From the NCBI GenBank assembly GCA_963971425.1, contig OZ020515.1, positions 17,376,291-17,440,290 on the forward strand: a stretch of 64,000 nucleotides of DNA. Reading direction: 5' to 3'. Source of the stretch: Bryoerythrophyllum caledonicum. Lineage: Eukaryota; Streptophyta; Bryopsida; Pottiales; Pottiaceae. Below are positions 1 through 62,986 of this stretch, piece by piece (the stretch's first letter is position 1; each line of letters begins with the position of its first letter). A program made the translations under genes and the position numbers. The notes beneath the pieces were generated by a model, which was not told the DNA's origin, made no database searches, and worked only from the letters and a program-made list of their open reading frames with translations.

Positions 1-2529
1 CCTTCCAAACAACAAAAAGTAAGGAGAAAAGGACGCCAAAGATGCTTGCTTACTAAACCGGTAGCCCATGGCTATCCACGGTAATTGTAAGTCCCAATCT
101 TGATGATGTCCCTTCTTCAAACTATACTTCCGAAGCCCCCTCTTGACGGTTTGCACCATGCGCTCCGCCAAGCCATCCGCTTCGGGGTGATCCCTCGAAG
201 TAGTGCGATGATCTATCATCGCTTGCTCACACAACGTTTGAAACTCATCCAAGAATTCCCTTCCTTGGTCTGTGAGAACTTCCGCTGGAGCTCCAAAGCG
301 ACTCAACACACGATCAAGGAAAGAGTAAGCGGCCCCCTCACTAAACTTGTCAGGCAACGCCACCAACTCTATCCATTTCGAGAAGTGCTCGATCATCACC
401 AACACATACTTATTGTGTCGAGGTGTCATTGGCAATGGACCAGCGAAATCTAAGCTCCACCTATATCCCAAGCCCATGATTGGCAATGGTTGCAATTGTG
501 GCATCGGAGCGTTAAAAGACGCTCGTACCCGATCACAAACCATACACCGGGCTACCAAGGCTTGAACTTGAGTTTGCATTCCTCGCCACCAATAGTGAAG
601 CTGGAGCAAGCTATAAGTCCTCCGTACTCCAAAGTGCCCAAGGTCTTCATGCGTGTCCTTGATGAGCTTCACTCTCTCCAATGGAGTTGGCACAACCTTT
701 TGCGTGCCATCCGGCCACACCCTCACAAGGTGAGTCCTCTCCCACACGAACCGTTTGGCTCGTTGTGAGACCCGATCTCTCTCCTTAGTGGACCACACAG
801 GCACCACTTCTCCATTCTTTAGAAAATGCATCACGTTCATGTCTTCAAAGATGTCTTTGGCGCCCCCAAATTCTTCACCGCCATCCTCATCTACCGTGGC
901 CACAGTAGAAGCTCCGGTGTCATCTCCACGCATCGCCAATACACTTAGAAAGGCCAAACAATGCCAACCTGGCAACTGATCGGCTTCATCTTCCCCGTGC
1001 CACCTAGCGCCCGTAGCATCCGCTTGGTTTGGAATTGGATTGCGGCTAAGGCCGTCGGCATCCATATTCACCAATCCCGCTCTGTGCACCACCTTGAAGT
1101 CGTATTCCATCAACATCAAGGCCCACCGCGCTAGCTTGCCTGTTAGTTTGTCAGACTCCATCAACCACTTTAAAGGTTGATGATCTGTGACTAACAAGAA
1201 CTCGTTACCATAAAGGTAACATCGAAAATGAGCAATTGCCCATATGGCAGCCAAACACTCCCCTTCATACGAGCTATACTGGGCCTCCGCATTATTGTTG
1301 GACCGGCTGGCGTACGCAATGACAAACTCCTTCCCATCGTCATCCATTTGCGTCAACACCGCACCAATTCCCAATGCGCTCCAATCTGTGTGTAGCTGGT
1401 ATGTCCTTCCGGCTATTGGCCTTCGAAGTATAGGTGCCGATGCCAAGCGGTCCTTCAACTCTTGAAAGGCCACCTCTTGCTCATCTCCCCATATCCAAGG
1501 TTGATCATTCCTTTTCAACATGGTTAATGGCTTGGCAATAGCACTGAAAGTCTTCACAAACTTTCTATAGTAATTACACAACCCCAAGAATGCACGTAGC
1601 CTACTAATATCCCTTGGTCTAGGAATAGACATCACTACTTCAATTTTACTAGCTACCACACCCAATCCACTTGGATATATCATGTGGCCTAAGTACTCGA
1701 TGCGGTCAAAGTAGAATTTCCACTTACCAGGGTGCAACTTCAAACCGTGGAGCCTCAATCTAGCAAACACTTCCATCAAGTGTAGCCTATGTTGCCTTCG
1801 ATTCGTGCTAAAGACAACGATGTCGTCAATGTAGCATCTCACGAAATCCAAGCCCGAGAATACTCGGTCCATAACCCTCTGGAATTCGGCAGGGGCATTC
1901 TTCAATCCAAATGGTAAGAATTTCCATTGGAACAACCGGTCCTTCCCATCTTTGTCAATGCCCCAGAACGCGGTCTTCTCCTTGTCTTCCTCTCTCAGTC
2001 CAATCTGGTGGTATCCAGAGCGCAAGTCCAACGTACTAAATACTTTGGCGTGACCAATAGCCTCAAAGTTCTCCTCCGGCGTTGGCATCGCATAACGATC
2101 CGACTTGGTGAATTTGTTAATCCTCCTATAGTCCCCGCACATCCTCTTCTCGGTCCAATTACCGTAGATATCTTTCTTGGATGGCATAATTGTCGCCGAT
2201 GCATACTCGCAATCCGGTGGAGCCAACTCCATTAGCCCCGCAGCCACCAACTCCTCCGTACGAGCACGTATCATCCTCCGTTCAACGTCGCTATACTTGT
2301 ACGGCTTCCGGTATATTGGTGCTTTGTCCGTCAAATTGATATGTACTTCTTGCCCCTTCAATACTCCAAGATCTTCAAGACTAAAGGCAAAACAATCTAA
2401 GTACTCCCTGAGGAACTCATGTTCCTCTCTCTCAACTGCTCCATCCGCCAGGCCTACCATCGGTTTCCAAGTATCCTTGGTCACCGCCTCCTTCGGTTCC
2501 TTTGGAGCAAGATTCTCCTTCCTTGGTTG
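1..2529 (-). CDS. Ty3/gypsy Pol: reverse transcriptase, RNase H and integrase (3'-truncated by window edge)
   Basis: Copies the element's RNA into DNA and integrates it. Read on the minus strand, the frame in phase with the stop at 2530-2532 is open from 2529 to base 1; I checked positions 1-1260 codon by codon and the rest by translation. In order: an RT entry segment with CGDYRRINKFTKSDRYAMP near 2075-2135, the RT active site YIDD at 1822-1833, RNase H near 1100-1450 (LHTDWSALGIGAVL, then TDHQPLKWL), an integrase HHCC zinc site near 540-650 (LGHFGVRR to CMVCDRV), and the integrase DDE core (WSLDFAGPLP, LTDQGREF, HPEADGLAER). There is no own start codon. It follows the Gag-protease-methyltransferase frame after a single UAG, so expression by readthrough is likely. 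The integrase C-terminus and the 3' LTR lie outside the window. No frameshift or extra stop was seen, which suggests a young copy. Confidence 0.93.
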
Positions 2530-2535
2530 CTATTG
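2524..2535 (-). promoter_or_regulatory. Candidate leaky UAG stop (CAA-UAG-CAA-CCA) between Gag-PR-DNMT and Pol
   Basis: On the minus strand the junction reads CAA TAG CAA CCA AGG. The bases after the stop fit the type I readthrough rule UAG-CAR-YYA known from tobamovirus-type leaky stops, and the preceding CAA also matches. Both sides are in the same frame with no other stop. The match and the shared frame are visible; functional readthrough is inferred. Confidence 0.7.
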
Positions 2536-5500
2536 GATGCCATGCGAAGGAGACTTTTCTCCCTCCACATCTACCAAGCCTCCAAGTCCTTCCAATTGGC
2601 TTAGTTTGCCAATTGTCTCCCTTTGCTGAGCTGTGTGTTCTCCCACGAACATATTCTCCACAGTCTCCTCCAAATCCTTCGTTTGGTGGGCCAATCCCCT
2701 ACTTCGGCTCCCATCCTTCACTCCATGAAGATGATCCTCAGTCTTGAGTGTCGCGAAAAGATTCGCGGAGCCCCACATGTTCCATGGGTGAGGTGCCAAG
2801 GCCTTCTCGCCCCCAACCACTTTGCCTGTCACCTTGACAGAGACAAATGGTTCTCCGGCCGCCCGCAACTCATAAGACCCCATGTAACCAGTAAAACTAG
2901 AAGCCATCCGCTTCTGTTCTGCCACTAGCAACGAAACGATCCACGTCAAGCAATTTAAGTCCATCGCTTGTCCAAGTAAAAATTGCCGTTGTTGCTCCGA
3001 GATCCCGGGCGCATCGGTAGTGCCCGTGGAAAATCCCATGGCTCTCTCCCGTTCATCCGCATTAGGCTCCACCATCTCTTGAGACAAGGAATCCCACACA
3101 AGACCCGGGCCGTTATCCTTAAAGGCATACGACCGAGCAAAACTAACCAACGTGGGCAATGCCCTACGTGGTTCTCCTTTGCGGTTAACGACCGCCAAAG
3201 GTGCTTGGTCGTCATGATAAACGCGTCGCGGTGCCCTGTGAGGATCCAAAATATCACTCACGTAGACATCCGGCCGTTTAATTCGACCTACAGCGGACTG
3301 TAACAACTCTTGAGGTGCTAAATTTGTCCACCACAATCGTGGGCGATGTGCTCGCGATCCCACCGCAGCGGCATCCAACAACACGGGCATACCCAGAGTC
3401 TGGTGTATGCGGTGCATGCCCTCTAATGTCCTCGACCTCGAGCTACTCATCACTGGTACATTCTCCACAATGTAACCTGGTGGTCGCTTCTGAGAGGTTT
3501 GAAGCAAAGACAATACCCGAATCATATCATGAAACCGCGAAGAACGAGTGTCTTTCAACCCGTTTTGATGTCCAGCCATTGACAATCCTTGACATGGCCA
3601 TCCCGCGATGACAAGGTCCACATGGCCAACACGTTGAATATCCTCTGCTGAAAGCAAAGCAATATCACCAACAAGAGTAGAAAATGAAGTCTTGATGGCA
3701 CTAGTGGCCAACAAGTTTGGAAATTGGGTCCTCAATCGCCGTGAATGCCGCTTAGCCACGTGCCTTGCTGCCTCATCAACATCTACGTAGATGTAGCGTT
3801 TGACCTTCATCCCTGATTGCAGCACTGCCGCCAAGCCACTTCCAATCCCTCCGAACAACTCCAACAACACAATACCATCCTCTGGTACCTTCCACTGAAT
3901 GGTGGAAGTGTCTAGACGTGGGCCCAAGTCTTGGTCCACTCGAGAATCATCTTCCGCTTGTGGGAGTATCGAATGCTGCCAAACATCTTCAATGACCTGT
4001 GCCGCATCCTTCTGAAGTTGAGTCGTGGTCCTCCACGCTGCTTCTATGCCAGGTTGATACGTCTCTATATCTCCACCACTTGTGTCACCCACTTGGGCAT
4101 CCATCTCGTGAAGTGTAGGAGTATCCATCGAGAAAGTATCACAACCCTTGTGAAACCATGATGGTTCCACATCCATACCTCCTGAGAAGGCAAACACGTC
4201 TGCAAGATTGCCAGTCAGAACTCGAATAAAACGAGCTGGCAGCTGAGCCTTCCGCCCATCTCCTGCTTGCCATCCTGGTCTATAACTTGCGGTTTCCTCC
4301 CAGAAATCCAAGGTGAACCCCATGGGGTATAGCACCGCCGAGCCCACCAAGACATCGTATGACTTGGCCTCCGTTACTATAGCTTTCACCTTCATAAAGC
4401 TTGCATCCTCGACATCATCTTCGTTGAGTCGTAAAATCAACTCCTCCTTTGTGATGCCTGTAGCATGCTCCGTACCCCCCATGGAAGTGCTAATTGTCCA
4501 TGGACACTTCTCCAAAGTGTCCCTAGTCAAACCCAACCCCTCACGGGCAGATGCTCCCAGCATCAATGGTTGAGCTCCTGAATCCAAAAGCACTCGTCGA
4601 GGCACAAATACCCTCCCCTTGGGCCCAACAAGTTGGAAAATCCCCTGGGAGTTGTCAACCACCACCACACCAGGTGTAATGGATGACCTCTCGATTGCAG
4701 GTCTGGCGGCCATGGTCTTGACACGCATGGCTGCTGAAAGCAGCCCCTCCACGTTGTCCTCTTGACTCTTATCCACCTCTCCTCCAACCACTTCCGTCTT
4801 CAACGCATTGACGCCCGTGGAGTCACCCAACTCACACATTTGAGCCGCCATCTTGAAGACCGCCGCTGCATTGAAGCCCTCTTGTGACATCAATTTAGCA
4901 GAAAATAGTGAAGCCTCACAAACCACGTTTGCCGCTTCTCTCACCACCGTACTAGATGGCTCTACAATCCCAATGCTAGGGCGAGTTGTTGGCACCCCCC
5001 GACGCGTTGGAGGCACCATGGAAGATGTTGGCACCATCTCCTCCAACGTGAAAGACTCTGGCAATCGAGCTTGCCGGTTGTCCTTACCATGTTGAGGATC
5101 CAAGATTGGACTTGCTCCACGTGGAACCTCCTTGGTCACCGGTGTTTGACTCCGCGTAAGGGCATAAGCCTCCCGTGGGCCCCCCGTAATAGCAAGTGCC
5201 ATGCCACTTAGCATATAGTCCCCGAATTCGTCATCATCGGGCCTAAACCCGCCCTCAGCATGAAAACTAGGAGTGACTTGGAGCTTCTCACTCACTGAAG
5301 CAGCATTTGCGCTCATGGCCGCCATCTTGGCCTCCAACTCCGCAAATTTGGCCTTCCAACCTTTCTTGTCTCCTCCCGAAGACTTGGACTCCTTCTCTTT
5401 GTTGCTTGCCTTGGCTCCCTTGCCTCCAGAAGGCTTCAACTCAGGGTGAAGCTTCCAACACTTAGCCTCGGAATGTCCCTTGGCACCACAACCAGAGCAA

Positions 5501-6387
5501 TAGCCACCGATTTGAGGTGTAGAGGACTTGCCTTCCTTGCAATCCTTCCTCAAATGCCCCGGTTTGCCACAACTAAAGCATAATGCTTCAGTATCGGTGG
5601 CATAGGAGGGAACCGCAGCCTTGGCCACCTTGACTTTCTCAGGAACCTTCTCTTCTCGTTTGAGAAATCCCATGGCCGCTTTCTCCTCCAATAAATTGAT
5701 CTCAATTCTCTCGGACGTCTCGAACACAAATCTCAAAGTCGGTGGCTCACCCAATCGCAATGCCTCATTGCGAACTAATGTCTTCAGCTCCTTCTCTAAG
5801 ATGCTGTACCAGTGCTGCACCGCTTGTTGCTCCGTGACTCCGTGAGTAGCAGAGATCAGTCTCCGCAATCTCGCATGAGCTTCTCGCAAGGATTCATCTC
5901 CTCCTCGCGCAAAAGACCTCAATGCCTTCATCTTATCCGCTCGTTGACCTTGATAGTCTCGACGGATCTGTGTGAAGAACATGGCCGTAGGGTTAAACGG
6001 AGGTGGAATAGCCACCGTTTCCATCGGTTGGCTCAAGTCCTCGGCACTACTTGTGCCCTCCTCCTGCTTCCCCTTTCCCACACGTGATGGCACACTCGGC
6101 GCTCCGCCGAATACATCCGCGTAATTCGGTGCATAGAAATCCCTCCATGCCAATATCTCCGTGAGGTGAGCCGCCTCGAATTCTCCATAATCCGCTAACG
6201 GAGCTCCTTCTAGACATCCAAATAACGCCCTCCACACCATGTAAGGGTTGAAGTTGGGGTTGCGAGACTTCTGGAGTTCACACCACATGGTGAACTCCCT
6301 CTTGAAGTCATCCGCTTCAATAGTGCCCGTGGCATCCGAAAACTGTTGCACCCCCCGTTCTCCTCCTCCTCCATATGGTGAAGCCAT
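2530..6387 (-). CDS. Gag - aspartic protease - cytosine-5 DNA methyltransferase polyprotein of a gypsy retrotransposon
   Basis: Structural and processing polyprotein with a captured DNA methyltransferase. Numbering residues from the GTG at 6537: a retrotransposon Gag-type region (about 85-290), two CX2CX4HX4C zinc knuckles (C320-C333 and C347-C360), a lysine-rich linker, an aspartic protease with the DSGA active site at 652-655, then a full DNMT domain (about 887-1210), a short linker and TAG at 2530-2532. The frame is open back to 6618 after a TAA at 6619-6621 but has no ATG before 6387 (residue 51), so I use 6387. A non-AUG start, re-initiation after the 5' ORF, or splicing remain possible. 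Normal gypsy order is Gag-PR-RT-RH-IN; here the methyltransferase is inserted between PR and RT. No internal stop or frameshift appears in 1,285 codons. Confidence 0.93.
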   Translation of the reverse strand: MASPYGGGGERGVQQFSDATGTIEADDFKREFTMWCELQKSRNPNFNPYMVWRALFGCLEGAPLADYGEFEAAHLTEILAWRDFYAPNYADVFGGAPSVPSRVGKGKQEEGTSSAEDLSQPMETVAIPPPFNPTAMFFTQIRRDYQGQRADKMKALRSFARGGDESLREAHARLRRLISATHGVTEQQAVQHWYSILEKELKTLVRNEALRLGEPPTLRFVFETSERIEINLLEEKAAMGFLKREEKVPEKVKVAKAAVPSYATDTEALCFSCGKPGHLRKDCKEGKSSTPQIGGYCSGCGAKGHSEAKCWKLHPELKPSGGKGAKASNKEKESKSSGGDKKGWKAKFAELEAKMAAMSANAASVSEKLQVTPSFHAEGGFRPDDDEFGDYMLSGMALAITGGPREAYALTRSQTPVTKEVPRGASPILDPQHGKDNRQARLPESFTLEEMVPTSSMVPPTRRGVPTTRPSIGIVEPSSTVVREAANVVCEASLFSAKLMSQEGFNAAAVFKMAAQMCELGDSTGVNALKTEVVGGEVDKSQEDNVEGLLSAAMRVKTMAARPAIERSSITPGVVVVDNSQGIFQLVGPKGRVFVPRRVLLDSGAQPLMLGASAREGLGLTRDTLEKCPWTISTSMGGTEHATGITKEELILRLNEDDVEDASFMKVKAIVTEAKSYDVLVGSAVLYPMGFTLDFWEETASYRPGWQAGDGRKAQLPARFIRVLTGNLADVFAFSGGMDVEPSWFHKGCDTFSMDTPTLHEMDAQVGDTSGGDIETYQPGIEAAWRTTTQLQKDAAQVIEDVWQHSILPQAEDDSRVDQDLGPRLDTSTIQWKVPEDGIVLLELFGGIGSGLAAVLQSGMKVKRYIYVDVDEAARHVAKRHSRRLRTQFPNLLATSAIKTSFSTLVGDIALLSAEDIQRVGHVDLVIAGWPCQGLSMAGHQNGLKDTRSSRFHDMIRVLSLLQTSQKRPPGYIVENVPVMSSSRSRTLEGMHRIHQTLGMPVLLDAAAVGSRAHRPRLWWTNLAPQELLQSAVGRIKRPDVYVSDILDPHRAPRRVYHDDQAPLAVVNRKGEPRRALPTLVSFARSYAFKDNGPGLVWDSLSQEMVEPNADERERAMGFSTGTTDAPGISEQQRQFLLGQAMDLNCLTWIVSLLVAEQKRMASSFTGYMGSYELRAAGEPFVSVKVTGKVVGGEKALAPHPWNMWGSANLFATLKTEDHLHGVKDGSRSRGLAHQTKDLEETVENMFVGEHTAQQRETIGKLSQLEGLGGLVDVEGEKSPSHGIQ
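2908..3879 (-). other. Cytosine-5 DNA methyltransferase domain inside the retrotransposon polyprotein
   Basis: Transfers methyl groups from SAM to cytosine C5. The catalytic motifs are present and in canonical, unpermuted order: motif I LELFGGIGSG (893-901), motif IV GWPCQGLS with the catalytic cysteine C982 (bases 3592-3594), motif VI VENVP (1024-1028), motif VIII RAHRPRLWW (1062-1070), a target-recognition stretch with a motif IX-like ERERAMGF, and motif X FLLGQAMD (1186-1193). Motif IV reads PCQ and motif I FGGIGSG. I cannot place it firmly in the DNMT1, DNMT3/DRM or bacterial-like clades by eye. No chromatin-reader or replication-foci domain accompanies it; the flanking modules are retroviral. 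All key residues are intact, so activity is plausible. Confidence 0.93.
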
Positions 6388-6623
6388 CTCCTCCCAATCA
6401 AAAATTGATTGCAAAGGCTTGCTTGGTGGGGAACTTGCACTCCGTGCCAAAGATTCTACCACAAACTCACGTTCTTCTACTATCGGTTGAACCGTATCCT
6501 CCTCTTCTTTCGATTGAGTGGTAACTTCCTCCACCACTCGTTCACGAACGCCTACCGCAAATGGGGTGTTTCTCCGAGTGAAACCGGGCCCCTTCCACGT
6601 CTCCAGATTGAGAATTGGTTAGC

Positions 6624-7265
6624 TCAATCAAAGAAGCGCCATGCTTCATGAGTGCCCTTCTTCTCCGGAGCGTAGATGGTGGGTGGTACTTCCCAATCGA
6701 GTAGCTCCAAGGTGAGTGTGTCCCACACACTGCTGGCCCGCTCTCGCCACGTACCCACTTCCCACTGCCACGTAGTATGAAATACGAAGCCTTCACTCTC
6801 AAACTCGGTAAAGATGAGGGAGAACGTGGGCAATTGGTTCCCTCGACGGAAATCCACCACCTCCACTGTGTATCTTGACCCAACGTTCTTTAGGACAACG
6901 GCCTTCTCTCCAACCACAAGATCCACGGCTTCAACTTGGCCTCCTGCACGACAAAGAGGAGCTTGAACACCCTCCTTGGCCCGAAGCACTCGTACTTTGC
7001 GCACCCCACCAAGTGAAGTCCAATACTTCACGGACTCTTCACTTAGCACCTTCGTGCCTGGCTTTCGCAAGTCTTGAGTCCCGGTTCGAGACTTGGCTAT
7101 GGGAGATAACTCAAAATCCCTACCACTAGAGCTTGCCTGGGAAGGTGAAGATTTAACTTGCAAATCTTGGAGGCAAGTAATCAATTGACTAAGGGTCTCG
7201 GTGCTAATCTCTACCGTGGATGCACTAGACTCTTTTGATTCCTTCTTCTTTCCTCCACTATCCAT
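6624..7265 (-). CDS. 5' ORF of the methyltransferase retrotransposon, unknown function (213 aa)
   Basis: An open frame from ATG 7265 to TGA 6624-6626, immediately upstream of the Gag polyprotein and on the same strand but in another frame. The N-terminal third is Lys/Ser/Thr-rich (GGKKKESKESSAS) with a short helical stretch (LSQLITCLQDLQ). The middle is basic (VRKVRVLRAKEG). The C-terminal half alternates hydrophobic and polar residues with several tryptophans (FHTTWQWEVGTWRER), suggesting a compact beta-rich domain. I recognise no family. The gap to the Gag frame is only a few bases (Gag frame opens at 6618), so the two could be translated in sequence from one transcript or joined by splicing. 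It may be an accessory protein unique to this element class, or a fragment of a longer Gag. Confidence 0.6.
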   Translation of the reverse strand: MDSGGKKKESKESSASTVEISTETLSQLITCLQDLQVKSSPSQASSSGRDFELSPIAKSRTGTQDLRKPGTKVLSEESVKYWTSLGGVRKVRVLRAKEGVQAPLCRAGGQVEAVDLVVGEKAVVLKNVGSRYTVEVVDFRRGNQLPTFSLIFTEFESEGFVFHTTWQWEVGTWRERASSVWDTLTLELLDWEVPPTIYAPEKKGTHEAWRFFD

Positions 7266-8146
7266 GTCCCATATGCTCAATGCAACCCACTCTTTTTACG
7301 TGGTTGTATTAAGTGGGCTCACAATGGATGTTAGGAGAATGCTAGATTAGGGGAATGCTAGAATTTCACTTCTTGTTCACTATCATATGCCACACTTAGC
7401 TCACGTGATGCAACACATCAACAGTGTGCACAACAATTTGATGAGAACAACCCAAAGTCTAGCCATACATGATCCCCACAATCCAAATTCCTAGCCGAAG
7501 TACAAGAGAAAAGCGACAATGTCACTCACCATCCCATACCTCTACTAGTCACTCCCCAAAGGTGGCAAAGTGCAAGAAAAAGGTGACTATGGCACCCAAT
7601 ATCCCACAACTCTTCCAATCACTCTCACAAGCAAATTGGCAAGGGTAAGAAGTGGGCAACAATGGTACCCACTATCCCACACCTTCACCTCTTACAAGAA
7701 TGACGAAGAGCAAGAAGAAGGCGACTATGGCACCCGCTCTCCCGCACTTTCACCACTTACTAACAAGATGCAACATACAAACTTGTCACTCCCCCAAGCA
7801 ACCGACTACCCCCTCTCAACGCGGATCCGGATACGTTACCTTGTTGAAATAGTCTTGGGCCTCCGAATAGCTACCACTAGCTACTCTTAAAGAAACCCTA
7901 AATCCAATCAAGGCCTTATAATGCCACCTAAAAGTAGCTGGCTTTTCTCTAAAACCACACAAAGTTCTAGGATAACACCCTAAAATTCTAAGTGATCAAA
8001 ATCACTAGAAACGGGTAACTCTTGCACTAAATTGTACACAAAGCTAACATGTGCTCAAGCATGTATCATTCCTACATGGAGACAATTGAGCAACCTTGAC
8101 AGAATTGCAATATGCAATTCCAACGAAATTTTGGCAGCGCTTCCGC
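7266..8146 (-). other. Probable leader of the methyltransferase retrotransposon, with a shared 14-bp motif
   Basis: No convincing ORF. It contains three related blocks near 7560-7760 built around GGCACCC(A/G)-type sequence with CTCTCCCACA/ATCCCACA stretches, a local duplication. At 8133-8146 lies GGCAGCGCTTCCGC (minus: GCGGAAGCGCTGCC), found exactly again at 31304-31317 beside another LTR-like segment. It may be a conserved leader or primer-site feature of related elements, but I could not match it to a tRNA by eye. No standard TGGTATCAGAGC primer site was seen. Confidence 0.35.
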
Positions 8147-9950: not shown

Positions 9951-10750
9951 ACAATAATGTTGTGGTTACACCCATTTCCACAACATGATCTTTCTCAAGT
10001 AACAAATAAGTGATAAACACTCACAAATCACAATAAGTCAAGTCCATGCCACTCTTCAAGAGTGAAAACATGATATGGATGAGGCTAACGATGTGCAACA
10101 CGCACACACCTTCACCTCATCACGTGGGAGACTCAACTTGAGAAAGATGAGTCTCCCTCAACCACACGTGGAGGTCACCCGGGTTCCAAGTCCCGAGATG
10201 AGGTGTCGAAAGACACCACGGTTGCCCTAGCCGCCACGCGGCACTAAACCTAACCCTAATCTTCCATTAGCACTAAGTCTTGGGCTCTCCGGTAACTCCA
10301 CAACTCTCTAGATGGTTTCTATCCGAATACCATCTATACAAACACCTCCATGCGCCGATCCTGACACACTCAACAATGCTACTATTCCTTCACATGTCAC
10401 TATTCAATCACAACAAGATCACTATTCAATCACAATAGTGCCACAATCCTCACATGTGCTGTCATCTTCCTTTCAAGACTGTTTTGAATGGGTTTTAAAT
10501 ACTTTTTGAGCTTTTCAACCATCCAACTTGCCTTTGAATAGGATACAAGAAGGCCAACTCAAGTTGGCATGGTCATATGACATTTTCACATGCCATGTGA
10601 CGTGGCGCTTGATGCTAGGCCAATTTTAGGAAGTGACAATAGGTGGATGGAGATGAAATTGCGTTGAAGTTACCAAGTCCTGTACTAAAGCCACCACTAA
10701 CTATTGACCTCTACTAAGTTCTTACCACCTCCATCCACCAACCCACGGCG
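9951..10750 (-). promoter_or_regulatory. Possible 5' LTR/promoter region of the methyltransferase retrotransposon
   Basis: There is no coding signal. On the minus strand a TATA-like ATTTAAA lies at about 10494-10500, followed by direct repeats of CACTATTCAATCACAA-type sequence (10398-10437). The position upstream of the element fits an LTR, but the 3' LTR is outside the window, so the boundaries cannot be fixed. The assignment is inferred. Confidence 0.25.
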
Positions 10751-33412: not shown

Positions 33413-35680
33413 TTACCCCCCCCCATAAGGTCGAAGGTTGCGGGCCCTCCTCCTAAGCGGGGTTGATCCTACCGCATCCGGGTGCCAACGGTGGAAATCC
33501 CGAATTGTGTCAGCCGCAATCTGCAGATTCTCCACTGGTTCCCAAGAGTTTTCCTCGGGCCCATATCCTTCCCAATTGATTAAATACTGTAGCTTCTGCC
33601 ATCGGCCGTGCAGCCGAGAGTCCAAGACAACATGAACCTCCCACTGAACATCCCCGTCGGACGTAATAATCGGTGGAGGAGGTTGTCGACGCCGTCCCTC
33701 GATGGTGTCCTCGTGGTGCCGCTGTAGAAGATTGACGTGAAACACATCATGAATTCGGAGGGTCTTGGGGAGCTTAAGCTTGTAAACCAAGTCAGAAAGC
33801 CTGGCAATAATTGGAAATGGGCCGAGGAATGGTGATGCCAATTTCTTGGAAGGAGTTGTCGTTGAAATATTCTTATGTCGTAGGAATACCTTCTCACCAA
33901 CTTGGAATGTGGGTTGAACCTGCACTCCTTGGTTGTAATAGTGTCGGGCTCGCACACCTGCAAGGTCGATCATAGTCTTCACCTCGTTGTGTACCTCTTG
34001 AAAGTGCCTTATGCGGTCCTCTACTGCCGGAACGGTGGTCGAGGTTGGAGTAGTGAAAGATAATACAGGATGATACCCGTATGTTGCATAAAACGGGGAG
34101 AAGCCGGTCGATGAATGAGTGGAGTTATTATATGCAAATTCTGCTAACGGAAGCAAGTCGGCCCAGTCATCCTGACGTCGAGTAGTGAACATACGCAAAT
34201 ATTGTTCCAAGATTTGGTTTATTCTTTTTGTTTGCCCGTCGGATTGAGGATGGAACGCCGTAGTTGTAGAAGGATTAATACATAGGAGTTGACATAAGCG
34301 GCGCATGAACTTTGAGATAAAAACAGTCCGCCGGTCAGAAATAATGTCTTGGGGAGTACCGTGAAGTTTCCATATGTGTTGTAAATATAGTGACACCGTG
34401 CCATTAGCACCAATGGTTTCTGTCGTAGGAATAAAGTGAGCCAGCTTGGTATTTTTATCCACCACCACTAATATAGAATCATAACCACTGCTCATAGGAA
34501 GTTTAACAATAAAATCCACTGTTACTTTTTTCCAAGGAGCGTCGGCGGCGGGAATAGGTTGCAAAAGCTCGTAGCGAGCATGGTGGGTGGGCTTGGAACG
34601 TTGGCAGGTGTCACAGCCATCGACGTAGCGGTGAACATAACGGCATAGTGTTGGCCAATAAAAATCCCGAGACACCAGCTCGAGGGTCTTGGCACGTCCT
34701 TGGTGGCCTGCAACAGGGGTGTCGTGGCGCGAGCGCAAAATCTGACGGCGGAGTTCCTCATGGTCAGAAACAAAAACCGCCCCTTTGAAACGGAGAAGGC
34801 CGTCCTCCCATGTGTAAGCCTGGAACCGATGGCAAATGTCTGCAGGTGCTGCCTCCGGGTTGCTTTCAAAGAACGCCAATATTGGCCTAAGCTTGGAGTC
34901 CTCTCTCAGGCTTGCCTTTATCTGAGTAAAGATGCACGCGTCGGTCCACACCGGCTCAAGTCTTTCCAAGTAAGCTAGGCGCAAGAAAGGCCAAGGCTCC
35001 TCATCTGTCCCATCCGTGACATCTACGCGTTGAGATAATTCATTTGTCCTTCCATTCAAAGAGCCTGGCCGGTGGTGGATGGCCAAATCAAAGGCCGAAA
35101 GCATCTCAGACCAACGAGCTTGACGCATGTTGAGATGTTTTGTAAATAGAAATTGTTCTAAGTTTTTATGATTGGAAATGACACGAACCTGGTGGGGGGA
35201 GCCCTCTAGGTAAACGCACCAATTCTGGAATGCTAGCACAATGCTCAAAAGTTCCTTGTCGTAACTGTCATAGTTTTTTTCAGTTGGGTTCATCTTAGAG
35301 CTCCGATATGCACATGGATGAAGATGTCCATCATCACCCCTTTGAGACAGGATGCCCCCGGTGGCTGCGTTGGAAGCGTCTGTCTCTACCACAAATGGTT
35401 GCTCGAAGTTGGGGTGGATTAATACCGGGGCCTTGAGGAACCGGGACCGAAGATCTGTGAAAGCAGCATCGGCCGTAGGGGTCCACTGAAAACAGTGGCC
35501 TTTTTGTGTTAAGTTTGTCAGGGAAACTGCAACGTGTGAATAGTCCACTATAAAGCGTCTGTAAAAATTTGTAAAACCAAAAAATGCTTGGAGTTCTTTC
35601 ACCGTTGTTGGAGTCGGCCAATCCTTAATAACTTGAACTTTGTCTTGACACATCTGAAGGCCGCTAGCAGATACTGTCAT
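33413..35680 (-). pseudogene. Chromovirus Pol C-terminal part: RT end, RNase H, integrase, chromodomain
   Basis: A 755-codon open stretch after the last RT stop. It starts within the RT thumb (ELQAFFGFTNFYRRF), continues with RNase H (FVVETDASNAATGGIL; YDSYDKELLSIV), an integrase zinc site (HDTPVAGHQGRAKTLEL to CDTCQRSK), the integrase core (KVTVDFIVKLP, ISDRRTVF where the usual second aspartate-glycine is DRR, and PQSDGQTKRINQ), and a C-terminal chromodomain (LQYLINWEGYGPEENSWEPVENL) close to the stop next to the LTR. The chromodomain would direct integration into heterochromatin. Its ATG at 35680 is only the first methionine after a stop; the natural frame continues upstream to 36087. Confidence 0.93.
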
Positions 35681-42120: not shown

Positions 42121-43173
42121 TTAGTCCCGAGCTGCTCCTTTTCCCGAGCCTTCATCGCCAGTAGCAGCCAACGTAAGGGGCTTGGAAGGATTAGTAGGAC
42201 ACCGTGAACGTATGTGGCCCATCTTCCCGCACACCCAGCACCTTCTTTGACGTTGATACTCCAATCTGTCGGCCGTTGTTTTAGCAAGAGCCGTGGATGT
42301 GGTGTACGTGGCATCTAATTCCATGGGAGTGGGACCGATTGACGTCGAAGGTGGCCGGGATCGTGCAGCATATTCTCGTGGTGCAAAAGTAGACCCCATA
42401 GGTTGCCGGTGTTGTTGCCGCATCCATAGTCGATCGTCAATTCTTGAAGCCATAGACATCCATTCCTGGAGAGTGCGAGGCTGAGTCTCGGCGGTTGCTA
42501 TGGAGTCGAGAAGGTCGTCCTTTAAACCAGCGCGAAACCGAGCCACGAGACTTGGCTCATTCCATTCCACTTGGGCCGCATGTTCGTTGAATGTTGAGAT
42601 ATAAGTAGCCACGGTGCCAGTCTGTCGAATGTTTGCAAGGCGGTCCTGAGCATTGACTCGTCGGTCTATCTCGTCGTAAACAGCCACCATAGCTCCCCAG
42701 AAGGCCTCGTAATTGTGCAATAAATCATGAGGTCTTCCTTCATCCAAGGCTTGAAGGATGGGCATAGCCCAGTTCTGGGCCGCCCCTGTTAAGTAGGAGA
42801 GAGCATACGCTACTTTGTCTTCGTCAAAATTATAAGTGCCAGGGTTGCCTCGAAAAACCAGACGAAGTTGGGCAAACCACTTGTACACCTCTCTTCCCTT
42901 TTTGCCGATGAACTTATCCGGTTTCGCCACCTTGGGTTCCTTACCGCGGTGGTATTCCCCTCGATACATGTTGGGAGTTGATACCGCGGTTTCTCCACCA
43001 TGCAGCGGTGTAGAAAGAGGAGGAGTTGCTCGCTCAGAAATTTGTTGCACCATATGAGGAATCGCCGCTTGGAAGACGTTCTGAATCTGTTGTTGTATAA
43101 ACATAGCCCAGTCGGGCCCTACTCCATCCGGCACAGGCGGGGCACCTTCCGTGTTAAGTCTTTCTTGATCCAT
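42121..43173 (-). CDS. Chromovirus Gag (350 aa)
   Basis: Capsid and nucleocapsid protein. ATG at 43173 (MDQERLNTEGAP), a retrotransposon-gag domain around residues 80-200 (KWFAQLRLVFRGNPGTY to YISTFNEHAAQVEW, VARFRAGLKDDLLDS), then a CCHC zinc knuckle CWVCGKMGHIRSRC near residue 315 and a short tail. It is the only full-length frame left in this element. Its stop at 42121 precedes the protease by about 115 bp of out-of-frame sequence. Confidence 0.92.
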   Translation of the reverse strand: MDQERLNTEGAPPVPDGVGPDWAMFIQQQIQNVFQAAIPHMVQQISERATPPLSTPLHGGETAVSTPNMYRGEYHRGKEPKVAKPDKFIGKKGREVYKWFAQLRLVFRGNPGTYNFDEDKVAYALSYLTGAAQNWAMPILQALDEGRPHDLLHNYEAFWGAMVAVYDEIDRRVNAQDRLANIRQTGTVATYISTFNEHAAQVEWNEPSLVARFRAGLKDDLLDSIATAETQPRTLQEWMSMASRIDDRLWMRQQHRQPMGSTFAPREYAARSRPPSTSIGPTPMELDATYTTSTALAKTTADRLEYQRQRRCWVCGKMGHIRSRCPTNPSKPLTLAATGDEGSGKGAARD

Positions 43174-61215: not shown

Positions 61216-62986
61216 CCACACCCCTCCCACTTATAGCCACAAACATTACTCATAGTAAACTACTAATTATACTATGCGGAGATATAGAAACTAACCCTGG
61301 CCCAATGCCAAATATCTTCCGTAGCCATCCAAAAATACACAAAAGACTATCAAAAATATATTTTATTCCGAATACTATAAAACTCCACCCCGAGTACCAA
61401 CACATAGCATCCTCCTTTGCGCCACTTCTAAAATATAATCACATACTTCACCAAACCTATTCCACCCTTTATCCCAACATCTCCCGCTACATACTTCAAA
61501 AAAAAACAACAACCACCCATCCACACATATCTTGTTTGCCATAATTACCACCCTACACCCGTCAATAGACGAATGCAACAACATCACCAACCAACATTCC
61601 ACCAATACAAACCCAACTCATTGGATAAATATATTACTAAACACCCTATCCTCTCTATATAATCCCCCTGAAAGACACATAGAAACACTCCACCCATACA
61701 CTAAATTCTTAGAGGAAAACCAACACCTTTTTGAACACAAAACCTCTCTACACAATGACCTATATAACTTTATTCATAGCCAAATCCCACCCCCTTCCCA
61801 AGATGAACTACAACTAAAATTTCCCTACTTCCGACACAATCTCATCCTCGAAGCTCTTAGATGCTTCCAGCCAATTCATGATTACACGCACCCTACCCAG
61901 ACACCCGCCTACACTCCTCCTCCACCTCATAACAATGACAATATAGACAATAGGAACACACATATAATTACATGGAACACCTCAACGTTAAACACTGCTT
62001 TACCTTGCATCCATAATCTAACCGTTCACACCAACACACCACCCGCCATAATTGCCATACAAGAAACTAAATTAACCGCTACTAAATCCACAAAATACAT
62101 CCAAAAAACATTCCCCAATTATAAACTCATATTTAACAACACTCATTCTCTTACACGATGCATCCAACAACGGAGGCCATATACTCCGGCAAGAGGTGGT
62201 CTACTCATGCTCATACACCAATCATATGCCTTCCCCAGGAATATTACTAAAATCCCCACCCCGGTTAATATATCACCTTATCTCCAAATTATTGAAATTG
62301 CTAACCGCCCCCTTCAACCATGGATCATTCTTCATCTATACATGCCCTCACATATAGAAGACTCTAGGCTTATTCCGGAGATCCAAAACTCCATTATTTC
62401 ACAAATAAATACACACCTTAACCATACAATTATACTTTGCGGTGACTTTAACCGAGACATCGCCCTTATCGAACGACAAAATGGAGCGGTTTTTACCCCC
62501 CCACTTGACATAGACTATCAATGGCATAACTATACGGATGACCTAGAATTATACCTAATCCCAATCGACACACAATACTCTCGACAAGGTGGACTAAATT
62601 ACACACACACTAGCCTAATTGATGGAATTTATATCAGAACACTTAACCATACCAGTTACACATCAATCACCAACACCACTACCAACTTAAACTCGGACCA
62701 CTTCCCAATCCATCTCAACATACCCCACAATACTCTTATAAATAGGCCTCCTACAACCATCAACTCAAATGATATTAAAATACTAAACCCCATCCCAAAA
62801 GAAAACCTTGACAACTTTAACACAATATTCTTCGAAAAAAACTCTCTATAAATGGACTCCCTTACAGATATCCTTTCTAACCATCAACACCTCACACACA
62901 CACAATGGCAAGACGTTTGCACGACTCTTGACAAACTCATAAAAGAAATCTCTACTATACTAGAAAAAACTTGTAAAGCGCCACCG
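61146..62986 (+). pseudogene. LINE-like ORF2: 2A-like motif plus APE endonuclease; truncated before RT
   Basis: APE-type endonuclease that nicks target DNA for non-LTR retrotransposition. The first frame is open from 61146 (no ATG before 61305) and contains LLIILCGDIETNPGP, bases 61260-61304, then MPNIFRSHPK. A frameshift in an A9 run (61498-61506) moves the reading to the frame of 61532-62851. Endonuclease motifs are complete: IITWNTSTLN (about 61962), IQETK (62057-62071), LYMPS, CGDFNRD (62438-62458), DGIYIR, and LNSDHFPIHL (62687-62716). TAA 62849-62851 is in frame, after which the protein continues (MDSLTDILSNHQ to LEKTCKAPP) and stops abruptly at 62987, where another sequence begins. Reverse transcriptase is missing, so this copy cannot move itself. 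Confidence 0.87.
61278..61304 (+). other. 2A-like ribosome-skipping motif (GDIETNPGP)
   Basis: Exact match to the 2A core D-(V/I)-E-x-N-P-G-P. Such motifs are known near the N-terminus of ORF2 in several APE-type non-LTR elements. The preceding LLIILC gives the hydrophobic run common in LINE 2As. Activity is not implied by sequence alone. Confidence 0.8.

Follow-up and report, generated by a model that had tools for sequence, protein, structure and literature searches.

What use is a methylation mark to a transposon? Transposons are usually silenced by methylation, and the 64,000-nucleotide (nt) stretch analyzed here (the window, C2:17376291-17440290) raises the question through a retrotransposon whose own methyltransferase appears to be kept under purifying selection in at least 120 copies. 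Lying on the minus strand and extending beyond the window edge, the element has the sequence-level order A - ORF0 - Gag-CCHC-protease-DNMT - UAG - RT-RNase H-integrase-PHD - B-GC-A-B, where ORF denotes an open reading frame, RT is reverse transcriptase, and A and B are the two parts of a split repeat. We read it, with a probability of roughly 0.55, as a retrotransposon of the Ty3/gypsy lineage, autonomous and belonging to a green-plant clade, with a DNMT3-type enzyme and a self-primed, leaky-stop, circle-integrating, self-methylating cycle. The kind of element is already known (KnitGypsy-Dnmt3); novelty lies in its probable land-plant host, its gene order, and its ends.

A methyltransferase domain in the Gag-protease frame

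The coding features of the element are as follows.

6624..7280, minus: ORF0, 218 codons (first ATG at codon 6), 5' of Gag and in a different frame
2530..6537, minus: ORF1, Gag-CCHC-CCHC-protease-DNMT, with 1335 codons when counted from a GTG and its first ATG (codon 51) at 6387
5686..6309, minus: Gag region, residues 77-284, from alignment to relatives (PF03732 under the Pfam cut-off)
5458..5580, minus: two CCHC knuckles, residues 320-333 and 347-360, from Pfam and alignment
4339..4602, minus: aspartic protease, residues 646-733, LLDSGAQP, from alignment (Pfam match under cut-off)
2908..3879, minus: DNMT3-type C5 cytosine methyltransferase domain, residues 887-1210, from Pfam, a structure-database profile, and a model
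2524..2535, minus: leaky-stop candidate CAA-TAG-CAA-CCA between ORF1 and Pol, frame unchanged, from sequence and the consensus CAR YYA (PMC2754532)
1..2484, minus: ORF2, with RT at 1075-2286, RNase H, and integrase from 699; it leaves the window and continues for 198 amino acids, with a C-terminal PHD finger

The original prediction, an uninterrupted Gag-CCHC-CCHC-protease-DNMT frame followed by an RT-RNase H-integrase frame without a stop to the window edge, was confirmed in both parts; it had ended the first frame at the first ATG, and its residue numbers (such as C982) count from 6537. In ORF1, zf-CCHC exceeds the Pfam cut-off (E 8.4e-5). The protease (PF13650, E 0.0062) and Gag (PF03732, E 0.0095) matches fall under theirs, and both regions hold invariant columns in an alignment with nine relatives. 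The Ty3/gypsy order of protease, RT, RNase H, and integrase is present, with an integrase assigned to rve by Pfam, and the PHD finger past the window edge matches PF00628 (E 3.3e-10).

The methyltransferase itself was examined by profile, structure search, and fold model. The Pfam check proposed for the DNMT region gave a PF00145 match over the cut-off (E 2.4e-13, 50.7 bits, cut-off 22), and the predicted motifs were found: FGGIGSG, PCQ (C982), ENV (1025-1027), RPR (1065-1067), and a DNMT3-like C-terminal stretch. DNMT3A was the top match in a sequence search of solved structures (E 1.1e-10) and in a Protein Data Bank search with a profile of 16 sequences (6.2e-25), the latter also returning 4onj (1.2e-12), which we take to be a DRM structure, DRM2 (3.6e-9), and HhaI (2.7e-9). 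A structure model from the same 16 sequences (pLDDT 88.2, pTM 0.90) has DNMT3B and DNMT3A as its nearest folds (best E 3.4e-19); among the 50 matches listed, template-modeling scores by query length were 0.64-0.70 at 20-25% identity. Sequence and model thus support a DNMT3-type C5 methyltransferase with its catalytic motifs in place, and with it the claim of a gypsy element that carries an intact enzyme, the type being DNMT3.

A search of the assembly (437 Mb, 894 contigs) with the window DNMT protein found at least 120 places (120 scored, 2127 candidates), each at 86-100% identity, with 72 of the 120 free of stops inside the match. Reading 40 further copies across DNMT and RT gave, with the window, 41 sequences. 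The 39 with a full DNMT, window included, fall by identity into subfamilies I (n=17, holding the window), II (n=16), and III (n=6), II being ~88% and III ~53% identical to the window. PCQ is present in 39/39, ENV in 38/39, and the motif I and motif VIII patterns in 37/39 each; 30 of the 39 domains have no stop. Median ratios of nonsynonymous to synonymous substitution (dN/dS) between I and II are 0.051 for DNMT (272 pairs) and 0.024 for RT (210 pairs); the corresponding values are 0.18 and 0.20 within I, and 0.16 and 0.19 within II. Synonymous sites between I and III are saturated or almost so. By these medians the DNMT is under purifying selection and is held more loosely than RT between subfamilies. 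The element has apparently been active recently, and the proposal that the window holds a young copy is borne out by its paired repeats, which differ at 2/597 nt.

A genome scan with PF00145 gave 123 scored matches among 1053 candidates, of which at least one is a bacterial-type gene. A bacterial-looking stretch in a plant chromosome (L001, C14:16014858-16018817) encodes a transposase-like ORF and a Dcm-like methyltransferase (PF00145, 2.4e-62); it is either a transfer or a misjoin.

ORF1 and RT share one frame, with a single TAG between them, in the context CAA-TAG-CAA-CCA. Readthrough in tobacco mosaic virus reportedly requires CAR YYA, the hexanucleotide 3' of UAG (PMC2754532). With two of the 41 sequences unscorable, UAG-CAR-YYA was found at the junction in 31 of 39, with all three subfamilies represented; the variants are CAA-CCA, CAG-CCA once, and CAA-TCA in subfamily III. 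No other stop interrupts the path from DNMT to RT in 23 of these 31. A related element, L108 (CADCWO010000201.1), carries TAG-CAA-TCA in frame at the same place. The junction fits a type I readthrough signal and is a leaky-stop candidate; since the motif persists across a DNMT divergence of almost half the residues, selection can be argued. Given its position in the Gag-protease frame ahead of this candidate stop, the DNMT would be made at the level of Gag and Pol at a lower one. The arrangement predicts both dosage and location for the enzyme, and the idea of self-methylation becomes testable.

Split repeats, palindromic junction, and putative self-primer

The 5' end of the element provides the following features.

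10000..10366, minus: A1, the 5' terminal repeat, 367 nt, begins TGTC; paired with A2, which falls outside the window on its left side (L009 7575-7941)
10367..10370, minus: upstream 4-bp target-site duplication (TSD), AGTG in element sense
9988..9999, minus: putative primer-binding site CTTGAGAAAGAT, adjoining A1 and complementing 10137-10148 at 12/12 nt
10115..10170, minus: hairpin in A1 holding the putative self-primer ATCTTTCTCAAG (10137-10148), -23.8 kcal/mol, z -3.5

In its own sense, the element runs from A1 (367 nt) through the coding region, B1 (230 nt), GC, and A2 to B2, with termini TGTC...GACA. A1 and A2 differ at 2/367 positions, and B1 and B2 are identical. Ty3/gypsy retrotransposons that carry long terminal repeats (LTRs) encode protease, RT, RNase H, and integrase in that order, have TG...CA ends and a TSD of 4-6 bp, and are bounded by two complete terminal LTRs. 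The domain order, the TG...CA ends, and a 4-bp TSD are all present here. Two complete terminal LTRs are absent, the 5' end being A alone and the 3' end B-A-B; because the 5' end is A alone, an ordinary two-LTR gypsy element was rejected. The B-A-B arrangement recurs in 12 of 16 other copies (10 by a probe made from the window repeats, and 2, both of subfamily III, by their own repeats), and for that reason an origin from a solo LTR or a chance tandem was also rejected. In the remaining four, under the window-repeat probe, the 3' piece held B once in two and nothing in two.

B meets A in the palindrome GACAGCTGTC. GACA-GC-TGTC stands between B1 and A2 in 10/10 subfamily I/II copies with B-A-B, which are also alike at the A2-B2 joint, and both subfamily III copies carry the B-A palindrome. 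A 19-mer spanning the junction has 75 exact genomic copies, against 0 for a reversed control. Inside the window copy and those same 10/10 copies lies the joint TTA|GTAAAGG, so the outer ends of the repeat B-GC-A would have been joined ahead of integration. Both ends were read in 10 copies, and in every one the tetranucleotide that precedes A1 is repeated after the last B (the window, C7:14460419, C2:18871154, C11:17100649, C2:13927335, C9:22321093, C7:13327495, C4:18006381, C2:2300829, and C12:16261667). At C6:11615563 and C3:26371181, no 5' end turned up in the pieces read. A purine-rich stretch lies directly 5' of B1 and the primer site directly 3' of A1, placements that would define the LTR as B-GC-A in an ordinary replication scheme.

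Two further arrangements were seen. The C9:22321093 copy (L042, C9:22325000-22328000) ends in B-A-B-A-B-A-B at its 3' end, a structure that would be expected from circles or concatemers and for which recombination could be an alternative source. Two junctions lie 605 bp apart at C12:23034656 and C12:23035261.

The complement of the 12-13 nt after A1 is found inside A itself: ATCTTTCTCAAG in subfamilies I and II, GTCTTTGTCAAGT in III, and ATCTTTGTCAAGT in L108. The partner sites carry matching changes, such that the primer/site pair covaries across I/II, III, and L108, and the element would have a putative, covarying self-primer. Among 3000 mononucleotide shuffles of A, a 12-nt complement was reached in 0, 0, and 2 cases for I, II, and III. 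The primer hairpins give z values of -3.5 (window), -3.3, -5.4, and -5.9 (200 mononucleotide shuffles each), and their stems in III and L108 differ in sequence from those in I and II. tRNA primer-binding sites typically begin with TGG. The site after A1 lacks an initial TGG (a tRNA library was not searched), and self-complementarity was found in place of a tRNA primer. Tf1/Sushi and plant Tcn1 elements have ordinary LTRs and are not known to carry a DNMT. They also have a chromodomain where the present element has a PHD finger. Self-priming is a design that this element has in common with those gypsy elements, being known in Tf1/Sushi and predicted for Tcn1 (PMC6317226).

A proposed cycle and its rivals

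We propose that the transcript primes itself, a stretch of A pairing with the site directly after A. Most ribosomes would halt at the UAG to give Gag-protease-DNMT, and the methyltransferase would enter the particle at the Gag level; readthrough would yield Pol, PHD finger included, in smaller amounts. Reverse transcription would produce a linear DNA with long repeats B-GC-A, and its two ends would then be joined. In the circle (or a concatemer), integrase would cut the palindrome GACA|GC|TGTC after CA, with loss of GC, and insertion with a 4-bp duplication would leave A-coding-B-A-B. The DNMT would most likely methylate the element's own new DNA in the particle or the circle, no later than at integration, and the PHD finger may help to choose or read target chromatin. 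A more ambitious version, which we offer tentatively and hold to be rather doubtful, is that a DDE-integrase retrotransposon enters from a circle via a built-in palindrome, with a DNMT3-type enzyme at Gag dosage methylating its own DNA before integration, and that the write-and-read kit formed with the PHD finger has been kept across green plants.

The circle route has a history. Panganiban and Temin in 1984 placed a palindromic LTR-LTR junction within a genome as an integrase site and proposed a circle precursor, an idea later displaced when a retrovirus was shown to integrate from linear DNA (PMC11054761); foamy-virus integrase has been reported to cut a palindromic 2-LTR junction (PMC1180852). 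Those cases share with our proposal a palindromic LTR-LTR junction as the integrase site. They differ in that the internal junction here is a natural, conserved part of the element. Together with the target duplications, the conserved palindromic junction would make these copies a natural system for circle integration by a DDE integrase, and, if true, the route would be the one once claimed and then displaced for retroviruses.

We infer methylation, readthrough, and circles from sequence, and several observations weigh against this cycle. CpG depletion, looked for as a sign of self-methylation, was not clearly found in the element, and there is no sign of heavy self-methylation: the observed/expected ratio is 0.77 in the element, compared with 0.69 across the remainder of the window and 0.83 and 0.88 in two other gypsy ORFs within it, and pairwise CpG transitions per site are 0.032 vs 0.024 at other C/G in subfamily I and 0.058 vs 0.045 in II (~1.3x). 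Motif IV reads PCQ where DNMT3A has PCN. Within subfamily III, median dN/dS rises to 0.38 for DNMT (15 pairs), that for RT being 0.09 (6 pairs). Of the 31 sequences with the readthrough signal, 8 contain further stops, and the signal is not shown in 8 of 39 (one CAA-CCT, three without an in-frame junction stop, and four frame-broken sequences judged on their first three stops alone). The ends of L108 share 127 bp, as in a circular contig or a graph cycle, and this circularity may be an assembly-graph effect of repeats.

A rival account of the ends is a DIRS-like reverse transcription that would directly produce linear DNA with TGTC/GACA ends, on which integrase would act as on ordinary ends, without a circle. 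The A-coding-B-A-B order is the DIRS arrangement and was noted as such for KnitGypsy-Dnmt3 (PMC5890265). Nevertheless, the purine-rich stretch before B1 and the primer site after A1 fit ordinary LTR replication with B-GC-A as the LTR, the B-GC-A ends are exactly joined in 10/10 subfamily I/II copies with B-A-B, and no tyrosine recombinase appeared among the Pfam matches of the ORFs scanned; we consider this route unlikely, if still a serious contender. DIRS elements are not known to leave a target duplication. They resemble the present element in their split direct repeats and differ in using a tyrosine recombinase, where here there is an rve integrase with 4-bp duplications in 10/10 copies.

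As to the enzyme's target, the DNMT might act on host chromatin at the insertion site under guidance of the PHD finger, hiding or taming the new copy with a host mark or slowing retrotransposition and so sparing the host, without methylation of complementary DNA. The PHD finger at the end of Pol, present also in relatives (75 pieces in the PHD profile), speaks for such a role, as does the lack of clear CpG depletion, and insertion-site and host-benefit roles have been discussed (PMC5890265). Yet the DNMT is encoded together with Gag and protease, separately from a PHD finger that only readthrough would make, and we judge this account unlikely. Much less probable still is a noncatalytic DNMT that rides along as a passenger or serves Gag in RNA binding or structure. 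No activity was seen in yeast for the domains of KnitGypsy and SymbioLINE, a result that the authors called inconclusive (PMC5890265), but the near-invariant motifs, the dN/dS of 0.051, and the confident DNMT3-like fold argue for a working enzyme over the passenger. Finally, the fusion of a host DNMT to a retroelement by an assembly join, which the original prediction had named as a risk, is refuted by the at least 120 places that encode the domain, by annotated Marchantia proteins with the same fusion, and by L108, which comes from another assembly; nothing was found in favor of an artefact.

Descent, known relatives, and neighboring sequence

A protein search with the DNMT returned 81 proteins, and a search of shorter proteins, in which only 8000 candidates were scored, another 81. 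Relatives occur in liverworts (Marchantia, Calypogeia, Riccia), Sphagnum, Closterium, Haematococcus, Cymbomonas, weakly Prorocentrum, and many metagenome proteins. The nearest named ones are liverworts, and annotated Marchantia and Calypogeia proteins contain the same DNMT-retroelement fusion. The host is probably a bryophyte: besides these liverwort relatives, plastid PsaB from the assembly matches 7ksq, which we take to be Physcomitrium, and two further chains best (1666 bits), ahead of a fourth chain at 1633 bits and others at 1599 or less. Two layouts were distinguished. In layout 1, the DNMT precedes RT (the window, liverworts, Sphagnum, Closterium, a protein labelled Tetstr1 that we read as Tetraselmis, and others); in layout 2, it lies between RNase H and integrase (Haematococcus, Tetrabaena, and metagenome proteins). 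Trees were built for RT (130 sequences thinned to 60) and DNMT (106 thinned to 60, with a DNMT3A piece as outgroup). Layout 2 forms one clade in both, with support of 1.0 for RT and, including pieces in which DNMT adjoins integrase, 0.78 for DNMT. Layout 1 is not one clade in either tree, P0079 and P0080, for example, falling outside.

DNMT and RT distances are correlated (Mantel r 0.823, 34 elements, 0/5000 permutations; 0.945 in 11 layout-1 and 0.791 in 23 layout-2 elements), which argues for old, joint descent. The suggestion that the DNMT was independently acquired is accordingly unsupported within the lineage, given these parallel distances (r 0.82) and a DNMT between protease and RT that spans liverworts, Sphagnum, and Closterium. 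The companion suggestion of a charophyte-type element holds in part. With KnitGypsy-Dnmt3 of Klebsormidium nitens, likened here by its published description, the element shares a gypsy Pol, a DNMT3-type domain with conserved key residues, and DIRS-like A-coding-B-A-B repeats (de Mendoza et al. 2018, PMC5890265). The placement of the gene and the host do not agree: the KnitGypsy DNMT is described in the Pol ORF of a green alga (PMC5890265), whereas in the present element, which has at least 120 copies in what is probably a land plant, it belongs to the Gag-protease ORF, ahead of the TAG. Ka/Ks for KnitGypsy-Dnmt3 is below 0.2 (PMC5890265), compared with 0.05 between I and II and 0.18 and 0.16 within them, but 0.38 within III. 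The portions of PMC5890265 covered describe no target duplications, palindrome, self-primer, or PHD finger for KnitGypsy and give no explanation of its DIRS-like repeats. Two K. nitens Pol proteins (P0214, P0223) fall in the RT clade of the window element, and a DNMT was detectable in 0 of 4 K. nitens Pol proteins examined, some of them partial.

Among other elements, the chlorophyte RT-DNMT-integrase-PHD forms (Haematococcus P0054 and metagenome proteins) belong to the same Pol lineage, with a PHD finger and a DNMT of ~40% identity, but have the DNMT between RNase H and integrase and form a separate clade in both trees. SymbioDIRS-Dnmt3 and SymbioLINE-Dnmt are likewise retroelements with a cytosine methyltransferase, and SymbioDIRS shares the split repeats (PMC5890265); unlike the element here, they use a tyrosine recombinase or LINE (long interspersed nuclear element) machinery and belong to other element classes. 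For streptophytes and dinoflagellates, DNMT3 is also mentioned in DIRS and LTR elements, the latter under the name Copia (PMC12344493). Our literature search, which covered few subscription journals and preprints, found, among the entries listed, no paper on a DNMT gypsy element in a land plant or on this junction. The contig L108, filed under a cyanobacterial metagenome-assembled genome, is a DNMT-gypsy element of eukaryotic origin whose DNA shares 92% identity with subfamily III across DNMT-RT. Scans with the DNMT alignment found seven loci in genome contigs (six actinobacterial and L108) and, at 26-40% identity, 13 in viral contigs.

ORF0 has no Pfam match at E 0.01. Against three subfamily II copies, it shows 70-72% amino acid identity, with dN of 0.21-0.24 and dS saturated or 2.3-2.7; by this comparison, it is conserved between subfamilies I and II. 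In two of those three copies, a stop stands at codon 2, ahead of the first ATG, and one has a second stop. The 5' leader contains a 61-nt unit in four degenerate copies (7493-7761). Elsewhere in the assembly, plastid contigs C894 and C821 differ in PsaB, C821 having Ser at several editing-type sites where C894 has Leu or Phe, and C572 holds a PsaA/B-like stretch with many stops. The window also includes a chromodomain-bearing Pol of gypsy type, with Gag in an ORF of its own (33413-35680 and 42121-43173), without a DNMT match, and a LINE-like endonuclease ORF at 61532-62851, with PF03372 slightly under its cut-off.

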